Below, piece by piece: positions 9,505-39,166 of a stretch of 41,869 nucleotides of DNA. The notes beneath the pieces were generated by a model that was given only the letters and a program-made list of their open reading frames with translations, made no database searches and was not told the DNA's origin. Source of the stretch: Ramlibacter sp. GTDB taxonomy: Bacteria > Pseudomonadota > Gammaproteobacteria > Burkholderiales > Burkholderiaceae_C. Within the stretch, counting starts at the first letter, position 1. Each line of letters starts with the position of its first letter. The stretch is from positions 1 through 41,869 of the forward strand of contig NZ_JAQGLS010000068.1 in assembly GCF_028292805.1 (NCBI RefSeq). Reading direction: 5' to 3'. The translations under genes and the position numbers were made by a program.

Positions 9505-11713
<2,209 letters not shown>

Positions 11714-28966: not shown

Positions 28967-30368
<1,402 letters not shown>

Positions 30369-30375
30369 GTTTTTG

Positions 30376-30399
30376 GCTCAGGCAAAACCTGAGCTTTTT
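30376..30399 (+). terminator. First of two tandem terminators after gdhA
   Basis: GCTCAGG (30376-30382) and CCTGAGC (30388-30394) make a perfect 7-bp stem with a CAAAA loop, then TTTTT (30395-30399). It begins 8 bp after the gdhA stop codon. Confidence 0.8.
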
Positions 30400-30400
30400 G

Positions 30401-30425
30401 GCTCAGGGCAAAACCTGAGCTTTTT
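30401..30425 (+). terminator. Second tandem terminator after gdhA
   Basis: A copy of the first: GCTCAGG (30401-30407), GCAAAA loop, CCTGAGC (30414-30420), then TTTTT. The CCTGAG word also occurs at 30364, so the element seems to have grown by duplication of a unit of about 25 bp. Confidence 0.8.
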
Positions 30426-31541: not shown

Positions 31542-32018
31542 TCAGGACCGCCGGCCGCGGTCCTTCGCGTTCTGCGCCTCGCTGTTGGCGCGCGCGGCCT
31601 GCCATTCGGAATCGCTCCAGCTGCGCGGCCCGTAGAAGTTGCCGCCTCGGCCAGCGCCTTGCCGCCGCCCGTCATGATGCTCTGCGCGGTGAGCCTGTCG
31701 CACCGCCCCGGCGCCAGCGCCTCGACCATGTCCTGCACCGCCTGGGCCACCCGGATGTCGACTTCGAAGGTGGCGATCGTGCGGTCCGGAAAGCGGTCGC
31801 GCCATTCGGCCGCGCTTTCGTCGCAGACCGCCCGTGCACCGGCCGCGGCTGGAGACGTCGGCGCCCAGCGCCAGGAAACGCTCGGCCATGGCCCTGCCCA
31901 GGCCGCTGCCGCCGGTGCCGGTGCCGGTGTCCGTGCCGGTGCCGGTGCCGGTGCCTGTGCCTGTGCCTGTGCCGGTGCCGGTGCCGGTGCCGGTGCCCAG
32001 GATGCGCTGGCCTCGCAT
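31542..32018 (-). pseudogene. Decayed short-chain dehydrogenase with (Gly-Thr)n expansion
   Basis: From the ATG at 32018 the frame reads MRGQRIL, then about 14 Gly-Thr pairs, then GGSGLGRAMAERFLALGADV. That is the first Rossmann strand and helix of an SDR, with the TGGGSG loop swollen by the microsatellite. The same frame ends in NFYGPRSWSDSEWQAARANSEAQ, which looks like the SDR C-terminus of dienoyl-CoA-reductase-like members. The middle is only readable after frame changes (AQAVQDMVEAL in another frame) and is far too short for a 270-residue enzyme; the active-site Tyr-x3-Lys is gone. So there is internal deletion plus frameshift. Confidence 0.6.
31914..31997. repeat. Hexanucleotide microsatellite, 14 units of GGTGCC
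   Basis: Fourteen 6-bp units run from 31914 to 31997. Nine are exact GGTGCC; the others are GGTGTC, CGTGCC and three TGTGCC. On the minus strand every unit codes Gly-Thr (one Asp-Thr), so the tract stays in frame with the SDR start. Such a tract is prone to slippage in steps of six bases. Confidence 0.85.
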
Positions 32019-32128: not shown

Positions 32129-33433
32129 ATGCAGCGAGCCACGCTCAAGATCTGCGCGCGCGCCGCGATCGCCCTCGCCGCCGCCGCTGCCTTCACCGGC
32201 GCCAATGCCCAGCAGGTGCGGCTGCGGCTGGCGGCCAGCCTGTGCAGCAGCATGACGGGCCAGGTGCTCACCAGCCAGCAGGTGCCGCCGCTGTCGTCCA
32301 GCGCGCCGGCCGGCAGCTCGGTCAACGCGGCGCTGGCCGACCGCATGGAGCAGCAGCGTGACAGCTACTTCGCCCGGCTCGATGCGGTGGTACCGTTCAA
32401 GGGCTTGTATGCCACTGGGATGACGGACCAGTCGTTCGCCCCCAACGAGGGCGGCCGCTACAGCTTCGGGCTGGAATGGGAGCTGTACGACCAGGGCCGC
32501 GGCGAGGCACGCCGCACGCTGGAGCGCCTGAAGCTGGAGAGCAAAACCCACTACGTGCAGCTGCTGCGCGACATGGAGCAGCGCCAGCTGCAGGAAAACC
32601 TGCTGGCGGTGGAGCAGATGCGCAACAAGCTGCTGGCGTTGCTGTACCAGCGCGAGGCCGGCGCGATCCGCCCGGTGCTGGAGCGCCGCAAGCAGGAGCT
32701 GGCCGCCGGCCGCGCCACCCGGGGCGACGTCGCCGAAGTCGAATACAAGGCCGAACGGGCCGCGCTGCGGGCCCAGCACTACACCGGGCTGGGCGACGTG
32801 CTGGTCTATCCGCAGGCGCAGGAGCTGATCAACCAGATCGAGGACGTGCAACTGCAGCCGGACGCCGAACTGCTGGAGCGCGCCGTGGCCCGCTCGGCCG
32901 ACTTTCGGCTGCAGCAGCTGCTGGCCGAGCGCAACCGCTTCCTGCCCTCGGTCAAGGACAACACCTCGGTGCGTCTCTACGTCGAACGCTCCAAGGATTT
33001 CGAACGCGGCCCGTACACCGTGGCCGGCGTGCGGCTGCGGGTGCCGATCGGCAACGACGAGGTGCGCGACGCCGTCGCCGCCGCCAGCCAGGGGATGTTC
33101 CAGGACCAGCAGGATTCGATCCGCGCGGCGCTGGCGCAAAAGCTGGCGCTGCTGTCGGAGCGGCTGCGCCTGAAGCAAAACGACATGCGGCTGCTGCAGG
33201 CGGAGAACCGCATGGTGCGGCAAAAGGCGGAGCTGGCCTGCTACCGTCTGGACCACCCGATCTCCAGCCTGCCCGACTCCGACCGCGACGTCGAGGAGCT
33301 GACCTTGCGGCTGCACGAGCTGCAGCGCGAGATCCTGACGGCGCGGCTGGAGGTGCTGGACGTGCTGACGCAGGTCAGCGCGCTGGTGAAGCCGCGCCAG
33401 CCGCAGGAGCTGTATTCGCTGCGCGCCCATTGA
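32129..33433 (+). CDS. TolC-like outer-membrane efflux/export protein
   Basis: The 434-residue product has a signal peptide (start MQRATLKICARAAIALAAAA, cleavage near Asn-Ala-Gln at about 27) and a largely helical body rich in Gln, Arg and Leu with heptad-like stretches. The DAVVPFKGLYATGMTDQSF and YSFGLEWELYDQGRGEARRTLERLKLES segments are like the strand-then-long-helix pattern of TolC-family proteins, and the GPYTVAGVRLRVPIG strand recurs in the second half. The start at 32129 is chosen over an in-frame one 87 bp upstream for the signal peptide. It is the likely outer-membrane outlet of the neighbouring polysaccharide synthase. Its 3' end overlaps the convergent glycosyltransferase gene by 59 bp. 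Confidence 0.7.
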   Translation: MQRATLKICARAAIALAAAAAFTGANAQQVRLRLAASLCSSMTGQVLTSQQVPPLSSSAPAGSSVNAALADRMEQQRDSYFARLDAVVPFKGLYATGMTDQSFAPNEGGRYSFGLEWELYDQGRGEARRTLERLKLESKTHYVQLLRDMEQRQLQENLLAVEQMRNKLLALLYQREAGAIRPVLERRKQELAAGRATRGDVAEVEYKAERAALRAQHYTGLGDVLVYPQAQELINQIEDVQLQPDAELLERAVARSADFRLQQLLAERNRFLPSVKDNTSVRLYVERSKDFERGPYTVAGVRLRVPIGNDEVRDAVAAASQGMFQDQQDSIRAALAQKLALLSERLRLKQNDMRLLQAENRMVRQKAELACYRLDHPISSLPDSDRDVEELTLRLHELQREILTARLEVLDVLTQVSALVKPRQPQELYSLRAH

Positions 33434-36089
33434 CCAGGTTGCCGGGCCCGTCCGGCGGCGCCCAGCGCGCGTTGCGCGGCGTGATGTAGACCTGCGGCCA
33501 GGGGTGCTGCGGCGGCAGCGCGAAGCGCACCTCGTCCACCCGGTTGTGGTGGGCGTAGCCGCCGTGGAAGTTGATGTCCACCGCGCTGTCGATGTTGCGC
33601 AGCTGGTTGTGCGAGGCGCTCCACTGCAGCGCGATGTGGCGGATGCCGCGCACCGTGCAGCCTTCCACCATGCCGCGGTGGCTGCGCGCGATGCGCAGGT
33701 AGCCGCTGCCGCCCTCGCCCTTGTTCCAGGCGCCGTCGATCAGGCAATTGCGCACCAGGAAACCGTGGCTTTGCTCGATGTTCAGCGGGTGCCGGCCGGC
33801 CGCTCGGATCGCCACGCCGTCCACCACCGCGTCTTGCGTCCACATCAGCGAGATCGCGTCCACCGCGAAGTCCGGCTCCAGGTTTTCGTAGCGGTGCGCC
33901 ACCGAGCCGATGGCGCGCTCGCCGGCGCGCTGCTCGATGCTGAAATCGGCCAGGCGCACGCCGCGCACCGGCCGCACCTGCATCACCTGCGTGGTGCCGG
34001 TGTCCAAGGCGGTGCCGACGGGTTCGGCCAGCCTGACGACGTCGCCGGCGGCGCCTGCCACGCGCACCAGCGCTTGCCGCAGGTACGGATACTCGCGCCG
34101 CCACTGCTCGCTGCCCAGGGCCCGGAACAGCTTCTCGTCGTTCGGCTGGCGCAGCCACAGCAAATCACCGGCCGCCGGCTGCTGGCCGCCTGACAACTGC
34201 AATTGCGCCTCCTGCTCGCCGGCCGGGCGCGCCAGCGAGCCCAGCCGCGGGCCGGGCGCGCCTTCGATGCGGAACACGGCCGGTTCCGGCTTGCGCAGCC
34301 ACGAGACGATGCGCGTGCGGTCGGCGCCGGCGCCGGTGATGCTGACGTCGTCGCGGCGGATCACCAGTGGCCGGTGAAAGTCCAGCTGGCCGGCCGGCAG
34401 CCGCAGGCGGACGGGGCCCGGCGGCGCCGATTCGATCAATGCCTGCAACGCGGCTGCGTCGTCGCGGCCGTCGTCGGCACGCACGTCGGCCAACGCCGCG
34501 AGCGGCGCCGGCGCGGCATTTGCAGCGGCCAGCATGGCGGCGGCCGCTGCATGCGCGTGGCGCTGCGCCGCGAACAACTCGGTGCCGGGCAGCCGCAGCG
34601 CACTGTGCCCGAGCAGGATCACCAGCGCGAAGGCGACGTACGCCACCAGCATGCGGCCGGTGGGCACCAGCCGGCGTGGCCAGCCGCCGCTCGCCGCGAC
34701 GCGCTGGTTGGCCTTGCCCTTGCTCCAGTTCTGGTCGGCCAGGTGGTGCCAGGCGCGGATCTTGACCAGCGAACCGACCCACTGCGTGTACAGCATGATG
34801 GGAATGGTCCGCAGCGTCACCGGGTGCCCATGCCAGGCGATCACCACCAGCTGCACGCTGCGCACCGCCACCGCCCAGGCCACGTAGAGCGGGAGGTACA
34901 GCGCGGACTTGGTGATGGCCAGCACGCTGGCGCCGGCGATGCCGACCAGCGAGGTCCACATCGACAGCCGCTGGTCGAGCAGCACCAGCCAGATGAACCA
35001 GCCGGTGTGGCCCGGCCCGAGCGCCAGCGCGCGCGGGTTGTTGCGCAGGGTGTTGCCGAACCAGCGGTAAGGCAGCGAGATGCTCGCCTGCAGGAAGGAG
35101 GCCTGGCGGCTTTCCAGCGAGACGCAGGTGACGTCCGGCAGGTACAGCATGCTCCAGCCGCTCTTGAGCACGTGGAACCAGGAGCTTTTGTCGTCGCCCA
35201 TCAGGAAGCGAAAGCGCCCGTGCAGCCAGTGCTCGATGGTGTCGTTCTCGATCAGAGCGAGGAAGTCTTCGGCCACCACGATCGAGGTGCGGAACACCGA
35301 GAAACGCCCGGTCAGCGTCAGCACCCTGTGCGACAGGCTGTGCGACTGGAACAGCACCTGCCGCAGCCCGAACTTGAGCCGGAACCAGTCGCGGTACCAG
35401 GCGCCGCCGGCGGGCAGGTAGACCTCTTCGTTGGTCGTCACCGCGCCCAGGTCGCGGTAGGCCATGAAGAACGGCAGCACCCGCCGCAGCGCGCCCGGCT
35501 CCAGCCACGAGTCGCCGTCCATGAACACGGTGACGCTGTCGGCTTCGTGGTCGTAGCGGCGCGCCACCGCGCGCAGGGCGTGGCCCAGGGCAATGCGCTT
35601 GCCCTGGCTTTGCCGCTGGCACACCACCTCCACCTGGCCCAACGCGGCGTGGCCGCGGCAGGCCGCGCCAACCACGGCCTCGTCCTGGTCGCTGCCCAGC
35701 GCCACCACCACGGTCGCCTTGCAAGGCAGCTCGGCCAGGTTGGCCAGCAGCGCCTGCATCGCGGAGGCGCTGACCCACGCCTCTTCCAGGTACGAAGGCA
35801 CGACCACGAAGATGCGGCTCGGCCAGGCGCGGCCGGCGGCGGCCTGTTCGGCGGCGGCGCGCAGCCGTGGGTAATGCCAGCCGGCATACCAGGCGGCGCG
35901 CAGGTAGTGCGTCAGCTGCCAGCCGTAGCGCCAGAGCGCGAACAGGCTGAAGGCGAGGATCACCTGCGCGTGCATGCCGTGCAGCACCCCGCGGCCCCAC
36001 AGCAGGAAAGCCAGGGCCGCGCCGCCGAACAGCAGCAGCGGCGGAATGGCGCTCAGGAGCGCGTGCGCCCTGCCCGTGCCATGGCTCAT
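33375..36089 (-). CDS. Alg8-like glycosyltransferase fused to a beta-helix polysaccharide lyase/epimerase-like domain
   Basis: The 904-residue product starts at 36089, overlapping the upstream gene by ATGA. Two membrane helices (about 13-32, 41-58) precede a family 2 glycosyltransferase domain (about 90-350). It has the DGD metal motif at 191-193, MGDDKSSWF at 298-305 and YRWFGNTLRNNPRAL at 341-355, all close to the mannuronan synthase Alg8. Further membrane helices lie at about 376-393, 397-418 and 480-498. After the last one, residues about 535-885 form a pectate-lyase-3-type right-handed beta-helix (VRADDGRDDAAALQALIE start, then repeated short strands such as NCLIDGAWNKGEGGSGYLRI and DINFHGGYAHHNRVDEV). 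The topology would put this domain in the periplasm. AlgG's DPHD motif is absent, so epimerase, lyase or binding are all possible. Polymer type is unknown. Confidence 0.85.
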   Translation of the reverse strand: MSHGTGRAHALLSAIPPLLLFGGAALAFLLWGRGVLHGMHAQVILAFSLFALWRYGWQLTHYLRAAWYAGWHYPRLRAAAEQAAAGRAWPSRIFVVVPSYLEEAWVSASAMQALLANLAELPCKATVVVALGSDQDEAVVGAACRGHAALGQVEVVCQRQSQGKRIALGHALRAVARRYDHEADSVTVFMDGDSWLEPGALRRVLPFFMAYRDLGAVTTNEEVYLPAGGAWYRDWFRLKFGLRQVLFQSHSLSHRVLTLTGRFSVFRTSIVVAEDFLALIENDTIEHWLHGRFRFLMGDDKSSWFHVLKSGWSMLYLPDVTCVSLESRQASFLQASISLPYRWFGNTLRNNPRALALGPGHTGWFIWLVLLDQRLSMWTSLVGIAGASVLAITKSALYLPLYVAWAVAVRSVQLVVIAWHGHPVTLRTIPIMLYTQWVGSLVKIRAWHHLADQNWSKGKANQRVAASGGWPRRLVPTGRMLVAYVAFALVILLGHSALRLPGTELFAAQRHAHAAAAAMLAAANAAPAPLAALADVRADDGRDDAAALQALIESAPPGPVRLRLPAGQLDFHRPLVIRRDDVSITGAGADRTRIVSWLRKPEPAVFRIEGAPGPRLGSLARPAGEQEAQLQLSGGQQPAAGDLLWLRQPNDEKLFRALGSEQWRREYPYLRQALVRVAGAAGDVVRLAEPVGTALDTGTTQVMQVRPVRGVRLADFSIEQRAGERAIGSVAHRYENLEPDFAVDAISLMWTQDAVVDGVAIRAAGRHPLNIEQSHGFLVRNCLIDGAWNKGEGGSGYLRIARSHRGMVEGCTVRGIRHIALQWSASHNQLRNIDSAVDINFHGGYAHHNRVDEVRFALPPQHPWPQVYITPRNARWAPPDGPGNLVNGRAANTAPAAGAASPAR

Positions 36090-37483
36090 GACCACGGCAA
36101 GGCGGGGTTGCGGATCCAGACGTTGACACGGGCGTTGGCCGGCAGCCGCACCTTCGGGTCGTCGAACTCCAGCTTGACCAGCGTCTCGTCGGCGCCCACT
36201 TCCTGCGTCACCACCGCCGCGGCGCTGGCCGCGGCCAGGCCGACCGCCGCCACCGTGGCCGGGTACTGGCGGTCTTCGAACGGCACGTAGATGCTGGCCG
36301 GCATGCCCAGTCGCAGCTTGAGCGCCGAGTCGTTCGGCACGCGCAGCAGCACGCTGGGCGTGACGTCGGCCTCCAGCAGCACCACCGGGTCCTGGGCCGA
36401 GACGAACTCGCCCGCCTGCTTGTCGACGTGGTAGACCTTGCCGCGCACCGGCGCCCGCACCACCAGCTGGGCCTCCTGCCGTGCCAGCAGCACCTTCTTG
36501 GCCGCCAGGTCCAGCCGCAGGCGGCTGACGACGTCGCTGTTTTCCAGGCTCTGGGTGCGGCCCGCGCCCTCGGCCACCTGGCGCAGGTAATTCACCTTGG
36601 AGTCCTGCACCTGGTTGGACACCATCAGCATGTCGCGCTGGGTGATGGCGCCGGACTCCAGCAGGCGCTGGGCGTTGGCCAGTTCGCGCTCGTGCTCGCC
36701 GATGTCGCGCCGCAGGGAATGGAGCAGACCGGCCTCGGCCGAGCGGCGGGCCCCGGCCAGCCGCGCCTGCTCGGCGCCGAGATGGGCCACGTGCTGCTCC
36801 AGCGCCTCGATCTCGTTGCGCAGATTCGGGCTCTCCACGGCGAACAGGGGCGTGTTGGCCTCGACGCGCGCGCCGGGCTGCACCAGCAGGTGGCCCACCC
36901 GCCCGTCGTGGTTGGCCGTGACGCGGGCGATGCTGCCGCTGACGAAGCCGGTGCCTTCGAGCTGGTAGGTCAGGTTGTAGTACAGGATGCCGCCAGCGAC
37001 CGCCAGCACCGCCAGCCCGGCCAGCGCGCTGCCCAGCAGCCGCGCCGCGCGTGGGCCGGCGGCGGTCACCGGACCGGGCCGCAGCGACAGCGGCGCCACC
37101 GGCTGGCTCGCCGCCGGCGCCAAGGCCGCCACGGCGACGATGTCGTCGACGTCGCCCAGCTTGCCGTCCAGGGACAGCTCGATGTAGTGCCGCAGCAGCC
37201 GCCGCGTGCGGTCGGACAGGTCGTGGAACTCGAAGCCGTGCACGCTGCCATGGGTGCTGCGGTAGATCAGCTCCACCGGGATCAGCAGCGTCGACTCGAG
37301 CAACGGGAAACTCAGGCGCGCCGGGACCACGTCGCCCTGGTTCGGCGCGAAGGCCAGTTCGCCCAGGCCGACGCCGGTGGTCGACCAGTCGCTGGCCGCG
37401 TAATTCCTGCCATCGATCTCGACGAACAACGGAATGGCCACGCGCATTGCCTTACGCGGCAGGTTCGCTTCACGCGACATCAT
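36086..37483 (-). CDS. PilZ-HlyD membrane protein, Alg44-like c-di-GMP receptor
   Basis: The 465-residue product begins with a PilZ domain (about 1-115) whose c-di-GMP motifs are intact: RxxxR at Arg10-Arg14 and DxSxxG at Asp32-Ser34-Gly37. One membrane helix follows (about 148-168), then a periplasmic membrane-fusion (HlyD) part: a lipoyl-like half (GRVGHLLVQPGARVEANTPL), a coiled coil (about 218-335) and the second half (VRAPVRGKVYHVDKQAGEFV). This is the layout of Alg44, which switches on alginate synthesis by Alg8. A strong ribosome-binding site (AGGAGG, 7 nt upstream) supports the start. The stop overlaps the glycosyltransferase start, so the pair is made together. Confidence 0.9.
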   Translation of the reverse strand: MMSREANLPRKAMRVAIPLFVEIDGRNYAASDWSTTGVGLGELAFAPNQGDVVPARLSFPLLESTLLIPVELIYRSTHGSVHGFEFHDLSDRTRRLLRHYIELSLDGKLGDVDDIVAVAALAPAASQPVAPLSLRPGPVTAAGPRAARLLGSALAGLAVLAVAGGILYYNLTYQLEGTGFVSGSIARVTANHDGRVGHLLVQPGARVEANTPLFAVESPNLRNEIEALEQHVAHLGAEQARLAGARRSAEAGLLHSLRRDIGEHERELANAQRLLESGAITQRDMLMVSNQVQDSKVNYLRQVAEGAGRTQSLENSDVVSRLRLDLAAKKVLLARQEAQLVVRAPVRGKVYHVDKQAGEFVSAQDPVVLLEADVTPSVLLRVPNDSALKLRLGMPASIYVPFEDRQYPATVAAVGLAAASAAAVVTQEVGADETLVKLEFDDPKVRLPANARVNVWIRNPALPWS

Positions 37484-37663: not shown

Positions 37664-39166
37664 ATGAACGTCACGATCGTCGGGACCGGCTACGTGGGGC
37701 TGGTCACCGGTGCCTGCCTGGCCGAACTGGGAAACAACGTCTTCTGCCTGGACCTCGACCAGACCAAGATCCGGCTGCTGAACGCGGGCGGGATCCCGAT
37801 CCACGAGCCGGGACTGGAGGAGATCATTCAGCGCAACGTCGAGGAAGGACGGCTGCAGTTCTCTTGCGACGTGGCGGCCAGCGTCGCCTTCGCCCAGGTG
37901 CAGTTCATCGCCGTCGGCACGCCGCCGGACGAGGACGGCAGCGCGGACCTCAAGTACGTGCTGGCGGCGGCCCGCAACATCGGCCGCCACATGGACGGCT
38001 TCAAGCTGATCGTCGACAAGTCGACCGTGCCGGTGGGCACCGCGCAGAAAGTGACGGCCGCGGTGCACGAGGAACTGGCGGCGCGCGGCCTGGGTGATGC
38101 GCAATTCTCGGTCGCCAGCAACCCGGAGTTCCTCAAGGAAGGCGCGGCCATCGACGACTTCATGCGGCCCGACCGCATCGTCCTCGGCGTGGAGGACAAC
38201 GCCGGCGGCAGGCGCGCGCTCGCCCTGCTGCGCGAGCTGTACGGCCCGTTCAACCGAAACCACGAGCGCACGCGCGTGATGGACGTGCGCAGCGCCGAAT
38301 TCACCAAGTACGCGGCCAATGCCATGCTGGCCACGCGCATCAGCTTCATGAACGAGCTGGCCAACCTGGCCGACCGCGTGGGCGCCGACATCGAGCTGGT
38401 GCGCCAGGGCATCGGCTCGGACCCGCGCATCGGCTACAGCTTCCTGTACGCCGGCACCGGTTACGGCGGCTCGTGCTTTCCAAAGGACGTCGACGCCCTG
38501 TGCCGAACGGCGCTGGAACACGGACAACCGCTGCAGGTGCTGGACGCGGTGCAGCGCGTGAACCACTCGCAAAAGCGCGTGCTGCTGGACAAGATCTTCG
38601 CCCGCTTCGGCCGCAGCCTGGCGGGCCGCACCTTCGCCGTGTGGGGCCTGGCCTTCAAGCCGGGCACCGACGACATGCGCGATGCGCCCAGCCGCTCGAT
38701 CATCGCGGCATTGCTGCGCGCCGGCGCGCAGGTGCGCGCCCACGACCCGGTCGCGCAGGAGCAGGCCGCCCGCGCGCTTGCGAGCGACCTGCAGGACGAC
38801 CGGGAACTGCTGCGCAACATCACCTTCGTGGCCACGCCGCTGGATGCGGCGCAGGGCGCCGATGCGCTGATCGTTCTGACCGAGTGGAAGAACTACAAAA
38901 GCCCGAACCTGCGGGCCTTGAAGAACGCGCTGCGCTCGCCACTTGTGCTCGACGGCCGCAACCTGTACGAGCCGCACGCGATGGCCGCGGCGGGCCTGAC
39001 ATACGTCGGTATCGGCAGGAACAACCTGGCGCTGCTGGCGCAGGCGGACCGGCTGCCGACACTGGAACACGCCAGCGAGGCCTCGGCGGCAATGGCGCAG
39101 GCTGCGACCGAGGCCGTGCTGGCGGGAGTGGCAGCGCAGGCGGGGCGGTCGCAAGGGGCGGCTTAG
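37664..39166 (+). CDS. ugd: UDP-glucose 6-dehydrogenase
   Basis: The 500-residue product oxidises UDP-glucose to UDP-glucuronate in two NAD steps. The N-terminal Rossmann motif is [19 protein letters not shown], followed by [13 protein letters not shown] and [10 protein letters not shown]. The catalytic cysteine is Cys271 in YGGSCFPKD, and the C-terminal domain has [18 protein letters not shown]. It has an Ala-rich tail of roughly 45 residues beyond the usual end. GDP-mannose dehydrogenase (AlgD) is a close relative; the VGTPPDEDG motif favours the UDP-glucose type. A GGGAGAGG ribosome-binding site precedes it. It is divergent from the PilZ-HlyD/glycosyltransferase pair and probably supplies its uronic acid donor. 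Confidence 0.88.

Follow-up and report, generated by a model that had tools for sequence, protein, structure and literature searches.

In the synthase-dependent exopolysaccharide systems that have been studied, polymer cleavage and editing are the work of proteins separate from the synthase, and the place and timing of their action are debated. The alginate system of Pseudomonas and Azotobacter consists of a glycosyltransferase family 2 (GT2) membrane synthase, Alg8, a PilZ-HlyD partner, Alg44, and the periplasmic polymer-acting enzymes AlgL and AlgG; AlgL-type lyases cleave by beta-elimination as separate proteins. It has been argued that AlgL is a free periplasmic protein (PMC5099689). Here we describe a gene in a 41,869-nucleotide stretch of Ramlibacter sp. 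DNA (assembly GCF_028292805.1, contig NZ_JAQGLS010000068.1, positions 1 to 41,869, hereafter the window) whose product is an Alg8-like synthase with a C-terminal beta-helix domain. The locus shares with the alginate system a GT2 membrane synthase, a PilZ-HlyD partner and a probably periplasmic polymer-acting enzyme, but the putative polymer-acting domain is located on the synthase chain and has no evident sequence likeness to AlgL or AlgG. No AlgD-type dehydrogenase was found in the 14 fused genomes searched, and no AlgE family protein in the window's genome. We class the system as a variant of the synthase-dependent exopolysaccharide machinery that is probably not alginate, and we do not assign it to a named lyase or epimerase family.

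The nearest tripartite precedent is a model of cyanobacterial cellulose export in which XcsA, XcsB (HlyD) and TolC provide a synthase, an HlyD-like adaptor and a TolC-like outer protein (PMC12430437). That model is described as unproven, its polymer is cellulose, and its genes are scattered in T. vulcanus; there the PilZ domain belongs to the synthase, whereas in the present system it is part of the HlyD protein and the synthase carries the beta-helix. The polymer proposed here is that of the glucuronan producers Sinorhizobium M5N1CS and Peteryoungia rosettiformans, a beta-1,4-polyglucuronate with an accompanying lyase, the biosynthesis genes of which were, according to a 2023 paper, not known (PMC10180729). 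Fusions recorded in a survey of synthase-dependent operons include BcsZC and BcsAB, and the accessible portion of that survey mentions no Alg8 fusion (PMC7112194). No report of an Alg8-beta-helix fusion was found in the open-access PMC literature, a collection that leaves most subscription papers outside its scope.

We give an even chance to the reading that the protein is a cyclic di-GMP (c-di-GMP)-gated polyuronate synthase that carries its own polysaccharide lyase on the periplasmic side. The GT2 domain at its N-terminus would build the polymer from an activated uronic acid nucleotide, of which UDP-glucuronate supplied by a UDP-glucose dehydrogenase is the likeliest, and thread the chain through the membrane segments of the protein, while the PilZ-HlyD partner would sense c-di-GMP in the cytoplasm and act as adaptor in the periplasm. 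The envelope-spanning exit would be completed by an OEP/TolC-like protein in Ramlibacter and related bacteria, and the beta-helix, kept at this exit by the last transmembrane segment, would cleave the chain by beta-elimination to trim it, clear it or set its length. A narrower version, which we hold only tentatively, is that this is a glucuronan-type (UDP-glucuronate) synthase, the genes for which were hitherto unknown, and that it carries the first representative of a new family of polysaccharide lyases, so that one c-di-GMP-gated protein both polymerizes and trims. Because fusion would anchor the enzyme where the chain emerges, a single protein would allow tests of how chain length is controlled and how the polymer is edited during synthesis. 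Should UDP-glucuronate be the donor, the module becomes a candidate for the genes of glucuronan biosynthesis. Free-standing members of the beta-helix family could serve as useful uronan-active enzymes.

Integrity and distribution of the fusion gene

The minus-strand frame is unbroken from the ATG at 36087-36089 to the stop codon at 33375-33377, and the 904-residue product includes the motifs DGD at 191, GDDKSSW at 298, and YRWFGNTLR at 341, as well as a Pfam match to Glyco_tranf_2_3 at residues 91-345 (E 6.2e-30). Divided into nine blocks of 100 codons, the gene has a GC fraction at the third codon position of 0.89-0.97 throughout, a uniformity that gives no sign of a frameshift junction, and full-length homologs in other genomes rule out an assembly join. 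Both artifacts were therefore rejected as the source of the fusion, which is real and encoded by one gene. The first-pass annotation had described a single chain including an Alg8-like synthase, membrane helices and a beta-helix, had named a frameshift or assembly error as what could undo it, and had noted the absence of the AlgG motif DPHD; all of this stands, and neither DPHD nor DPH is present in the fusion protein.

A Pfam scan of the fusion protein at E 0.1 detected no beta-helix family, and NCBIfam gave a weak beta-helix match (residues 550-592, E 0.027). Sequence searches of solved structures with the full protein or a synthase profile returned no match, and neither did a PHROGs search with the fusion protein and two homologs. 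No relative turned up in a viral-contig scan, and there was no sequence match among 50,697 phage records.

The same fusion, for which the annotation had recommended a search of other genomes, was found full length in other Ramlibacter genomes, in two other families of its class, and in the family of Pseudodesulfovibrio. Thirteen of 60 Ramlibacter genomes match, nine with a single full-length protein, three in fragments (two of them on two contigs each), and one with a split frame. The sample of the order yielded one match in 300 genomes, the window's own. In the class sample 10 of 369 genomes match the profile, six by the synthase only and four at full length, these being the window's own genome and three from the two other families (G690, G583, and G467). 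Matches were also found in 2 of 40 genomes of the order of G690, one of them truncated by a contig end, and in 8 of 149 genomes of the Pseudodesulfovibrio family, six of them full length. A contig scan identified nine loci, seven from Ramlibacter, one from Pseudodesulfovibrio (39% identity over residues 39-895) and one from Kitasatospora that includes the C-terminal domain only. The fusion is full length in 18 examined proteins from two phyla, and these scattered matches across genomes and families indicate that it is patchy in distribution but old. The frame-split gene belongs to G358 and corresponds to locus L005 (R. terrae), with the break near residue 701, near position 10100; this genome is listed as 63% complete, and a sequencing error is possible.

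In a tree of 23 synthases the fused proteins and an unfused one, L048, form a clade against the AlgD-linked synthases (support 100/100), and in a tree of 31 synthases the clade includes 18 fused proteins, L048, and a second unfused synthase, L099 (100/99). The fused proteins as a group excluding the two unfused ones are weakly supported (80/63 in the larger tree and 83/80 in the smaller), so that a single gain and a later loss of the beta-helix are indistinguishable. A tree of the beta-helix domain has the same main splits: six Desulfovibrio-type proteins, three of the two other families, and nine from Ramlibacter.

The beta-helix domain

An AlphaFold2 model of residues 505-904, built with seven sequences, is a right-handed beta-helix with a mean predicted local distance difference test (pLDDT) of 80.2 and a predicted template modeling score (pTM) of 0.83, in agreement with the fold first proposed for residues 535-885. 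The model of the full-length protein is poor (pLDDT 59.4, pTM 0.45). Foldseek comparison with the PDB placed phage tailspikes and depolymerases at the top, with 44 of 659 matches at E <= 0.001; the matches include several K1-capsule lyase chains (template modeling (TM)-score up to 0.52), AlgE4, AlgE6, an alginate epimerase/lyase, and then a polysaccharide lyase family 6 (PL6) enzyme (1.1e-3). TM-scores against viral models reached 0.57-0.65. A 10-sequence profile matched, in the N-terminal cap, the phage pectin lyase 7chu (E 1.1e-5), AlgE4 2pyg (E 2.3e-4) and AlgE6 (E 6.5e-3). Both the predicted fold and the N-terminal cap are those of a pectate-lyase-3-type right-handed beta-helix, and a Vibrio homolog of the domain matches PF12708.

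The conserved core includes N789, K790, Y797, R802, R817, H818, Q822, N828, D838, N840, H842, N849, and H862. In a 13-row alignment of hand-picked fused, Thermus, Vibrio, Streptomyces, RTX-bearing, and CBM6-bearing homologs, the residues N789, K790, G796, Y797, R817, H818, N828, D838, N840, H842, and N849 are invariant. Among the 18 fused proteins R802, Q822, H842, and H862 are invariant and spaced by exactly 20 residues, a spacing that agrees with model strands at 798-801, 818-822, and 838-842; these four residues therefore probably stack on one face of the predicted beta-helix. Judged from these alignments the domain is an unnamed sequence family that has no Pfam model and is recognizable by the invariant N-K, Y, R-H, and D-x-N-x-H. 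The K1 lyase (PDB 7W1C/7W1D), likewise a right-handed beta-helix, relies on key residues that include Tyr311, His373, and Arg397 (PMC8822698). Y797, H818, and R817 agree with these in kind of residue; identity to beta-helix uronate lyases and phage depolymerases such as this one is 13-15%, and the phage enzymes are trimers.

The invariant residues bear on the idea that the domain is a non-catalytic, carbohydrate-binding guide by which the chain leaving the synthase reaches the HlyD/OEP-like exit. Its tethering at the synthase exit would suit such a role, certain beta-helices merely bind glycans, and this family has no known activity, but eleven charged or polar positions that, along with structural residues, are kept over 13 diverse homologs, free-standing ones included, are typical of an active site, and the Desulfovibrio-type loci retain the domain without an adjoining OEP-like gene. 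We regard a binding guide as improbable.

Lyases in sister systems and free-standing homologs

A PL14 gene (E 8.5e-62) is located upstream of the unfused synthase of L048. At L100 an alginate-lyase gene (PF05426, E 1.1e-11) is located between those for PilZ-HlyD and synthase, and at L101 (E 1.4e-17) and L102 (E 2e-18) PF05426 forms part of the PilZ-HlyD protein. That synthase and epimerase or lyase are separate proteins, as the annotation stated, holds for textbook alginate; in these last two loci a lyase is joined to the Alg44-like partner. A free-standing homolog of the beta-helix domain on a Vibrio pelagius plasmid has as neighbors heparinase II/III, glucuronate isomerase and two sodium:solute symporters, and the same locus includes an alginate-lyase-family protein (PF05426, E 1.7e-80), a KdgM porin, KdgR, and KduD; by inspection G939 has a like locus. 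The lyases of the sister systems and this degradation locus lead us to prefer a lyase for the fused domain. The first-pass suggestion that the polymer is modified or trimmed as it leaves the membrane is considered probable, while its idea of a new chemistry fits less well than a new sequence family whose chemistry is that of ordinary uronate lyases or C5-epimerases.

Lyases and epimerases both abstract the C5 proton, and the domain could instead be a periplasmic C5-epimerase acting on part of the leaving uronates, AlgG-like in role and from a different family. The AlgE4 and AlgE6 A-modules share with it the N-terminal cap and the fold class, the Foldseek matches include them and an alginate epimerase/lyase, and the relatives with RTX repeats recall the secreted AlgE epimerases. 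The likeness in sequence to AlgE4 and AlgE6 is, however, confined to the cap, the fusion lacks their DPH motif, and hhalign comparison with four AlgG-type NosD/Beta_helix proteins of sister loci gave a probability of 1.3 (with thin profiles). Since, in addition, lyases stand in the place of this domain in the sister systems and its Vibrio homolog is part of a degradation locus, the epimerase appears less likely than the lyase, while being its main competitor.

Several homologs and sister loci deserve description in their own right. At L048:9120-13459 the unfused synthase, an HlyD-type partner and the PL14 gene lie in a row, with an arylsulfotransferase gene convergent to them. The proteins at L101:9302-12112 and L102:9635-12436 are PilZ-HlyD proteins of about 935 amino acids with a C-terminal PF05426 domain, beside an AlgD-linked synthase, so that the lyase is tethered to Alg44 and not to Alg8. 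The RTX-repeat proteins at L041:13962-16730 (seven repeats) and L060:7264-9681 (three repeats) carry distant versions of the beta-helix core, and one of them is near an alginate-type gene cluster in Salipiger. A free-standing homolog annotated as hypothetical, 41-43% identical, is found at L035:8857-9999 and on three more Thermus thermophilus plasmids; in Thermus strain AA3-7 it is broken in two frames.

Donor sugar and polymer

A Loktanella query, taken as a GDP-mannose dehydrogenase from its alginate-like cluster, detected no AlgD-type dehydrogenase in any of 14 fused genomes (two of them only 81% and 63% complete), the best match having at most 38% identity and 223 bits. Among four comparison genomes with unfused synthases, three gave AlgD-type matches of 43-44% and 370-407 bits. 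Where both searches cover a fused genome, the best AlgD-type match is the UDP-glucose dehydrogenase, and G315, listed as 100% complete, has one nucleotide-sugar dehydrogenase in both searches, of the UDP-glucose type. On the TuaD model the window dehydrogenase scored 474 bits and the AlgD-type enzymes 248-270; only the broad NDP-sugar dehydrogenase model reached its cut-off. Of the 12 unfused loci in the other clade, 10 have an AlgD-type gene next to the synthase (L037, L038, L040, L041, L050, L052, L053, L100, L101, and L102, and not L049 or L051), as do none of the 16 fused loci. The AlgE family (PF13372) was not detected in the window's genome (95% complete), by a search that was positive in only 1 of 14 genomes. 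The separate clade and the failure to find AlgD-type and AlgE proteins indicate that the system is probably not alginate, and an alginate synthase was rejected as its class. Of the alginate frame given in the first-pass annotation the Alg8-like synthase is retained and the alginate system is not.

These data also bear on a mannuronan or alginate-like polymer made from GDP-mannuronate by an undetected dehydrogenase. The nearest named relatives of the synthase are Alg8-type, with 35-38% identity to the AlgD-linked synthases, yet the clade is separate and the searches for AlgD-type and AlgE proteins were negative as above, and this is the least probable of the alternatives. With no AlgD-type enzyme found and a UDP-glucose dehydrogenase present, UDP-glucuronate is the likeliest donor, and glucuronan would be the natural guess for the polymer. 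A polymer other than a polyuronate, for example a neutral glucan, with the domain as a glycoside hydrolase, is very improbable: donor specificity is not readable from sequence and hydrolase beta-helices occur among the Foldseek matches, but the locus of the Vibrio homolog is linked to uronates and the sister systems have PL14 and PF05426 lyases. The known exopolysaccharide of R. tataouinensis is a heteropolymer with a decasaccharide repeat (PMC9658432), and is therefore probably made by another system.

Membrane topology and neighboring genes

Features of the fusion protein and of the adjoining genes are collected in Table 1.

Table 1. Location of the fusion gene, its predicted domains and the adjoining genes in the window
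Feature	Coordinates	Strand	Basis
Fusion gene, 904 aa, Alg8-like glycosyltransferase and C-terminal beta-helix	33375..36089	minus	ORF (open reading frame) and motif reading
Two N-terminal hydrophobic segments, residues 11-29 and 35-53	35931..36059	minus	alignment-averaged hydropathy
GT2 catalytic domain, residues 91-345 (DGD 191, GDDKS 298, RW 342)	35055..35819	minus	Pfam PF13641 and motifs
Hydrophobic segments, residues 381-399 and 401-419	34833..34949	minus	hydropathy
Loop, residues 420-479, 9 Lys/Arg and 1 Asp/Glu, predicted cytoplasmic	34653..34832	minus	charge count
Last predicted transmembrane segment, residues 480-498, leading into the putative periplasmic domain	34596..34652	minus	hydropathy
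Right-handed beta-helix domain, residues 535-886	33432..34487	minus	AlphaFold2, Foldseek, alignments
Conserved core, candidate active site, residues 786-864	33498..33734	minus	13-row alignment, 18-row invariants
PilZ-HlyD (Alg44-like) protein, 465 aa, c-di-GMP motifs RKAMR and DWSTTG	36086..37483	minus	Pfam PilZ and HlyD_3, motifs
Putative outer-membrane-factor (OEP/TolC-like) protein, convergent	32129..33433	plus	family OEP matches, conserved neighbor
UDP-glucose 6-dehydrogenase (TuaD-like), divergent from the PilZ-HlyD gene	37664..39166	plus	Pfam/NCBIfam; system link inferred

Three hydrophobic segments C-terminal to the GT domain are present in four of eight proteins examined, and the window protein has an additional Ala-rich stretch (residues 516-534) that is missing from the alignment-averaged profile. 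In homologs the loop that precedes the last segment has 5-8 Lys/Arg, L009 having 7 Lys/Arg and 7 Asp/Glu. The positive charge favors a cytoplasmic loop and a periplasmic C-terminus in the predicted topology, so that the beta-helix is probably periplasmic, as the annotation had it. The unfused synthase of L048 stops just past the equivalent of the last transmembrane segment; the beta-helix would thus have been added at a natural outer end.

The ATG of the fusion gene overlaps the stop codon of the PilZ-HlyD gene (ATGA). This gene is located directly upstream on the same strand in all 16 fused loci examined (the window, L002-L006, L008, L045-L047, L094-L098, and L103), two of which begin inside it at a contig end. 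All nine PilZ-HlyD proteins checked, among them the one from the unfused L048, carry both c-di-GMP motifs. The 3' end of the fusion gene overlaps by 59 bases the convergent gene for the outer-membrane protein, for which the label TolC-like is tentative because two of seven family members match OEP (PF02321, best E 2.1e-5); the window protein itself had no match in Pfam, NCBIfam or the PDB, and a profile search of solved structures was also empty. A convergent gene of this kind follows the fusion at the Ramlibacter loci with room for it (L002-L006) and, at 25-26% identity, at L045-L047, and none adjoins it at any of the six Desulfovibrio-type loci. In the window and five other Ramlibacter loci the UDP-glucose dehydrogenase gene runs divergently from the module.

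Several observations weigh against the proposed polyuronate synthase with a built-in lyase. TM-scores against the PDB are mostly below 0.5 and denote a match in fold class only; membership in PL6, for which the K...RH spacing is suggestive by eye, is not claimed, since hhalign comparison with three PF14592 (PL6) members gave a probability of 0.6 (with thin profiles). L100 and L049 also carry a NosD-type beta-helix like AlgG, which keeps an epimerase role possible for the fused domain, and the RTX-type relatives at L041 and L060 and the AlgE matches suit an epimerase equally. A weak extra hydrophobic segment in three of the eight proteins (L019, L027, and L028) makes the topology less certain. 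With respect to the donor, the comparison genome G536 gave 38%, without the 43-44% AlgD match. G308 (L071), a Ramlibacter without the fusion, keeps the same dehydrogenase beside the same two next genes, so that its adjacency is weak evidence and its use as proof of an operon was dropped; in the other two families and the Desulfovibrio-type loci this dehydrogenase is not adjacent.

Comparison of L071 with the window suggests that the module was inserted or lost beside the dehydrogenase. Between the response regulator and the outer-membrane protein gene, the hexamer GCCGGT is repeated 14.5 times at window positions 31911-31997, within what by inspection appears to be a decayed remnant of a short-chain dehydrogenase gene. 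A 25-26 base repeat in three copies (30349-30424) is located at and just past the end of the glutamate dehydrogenase gene.

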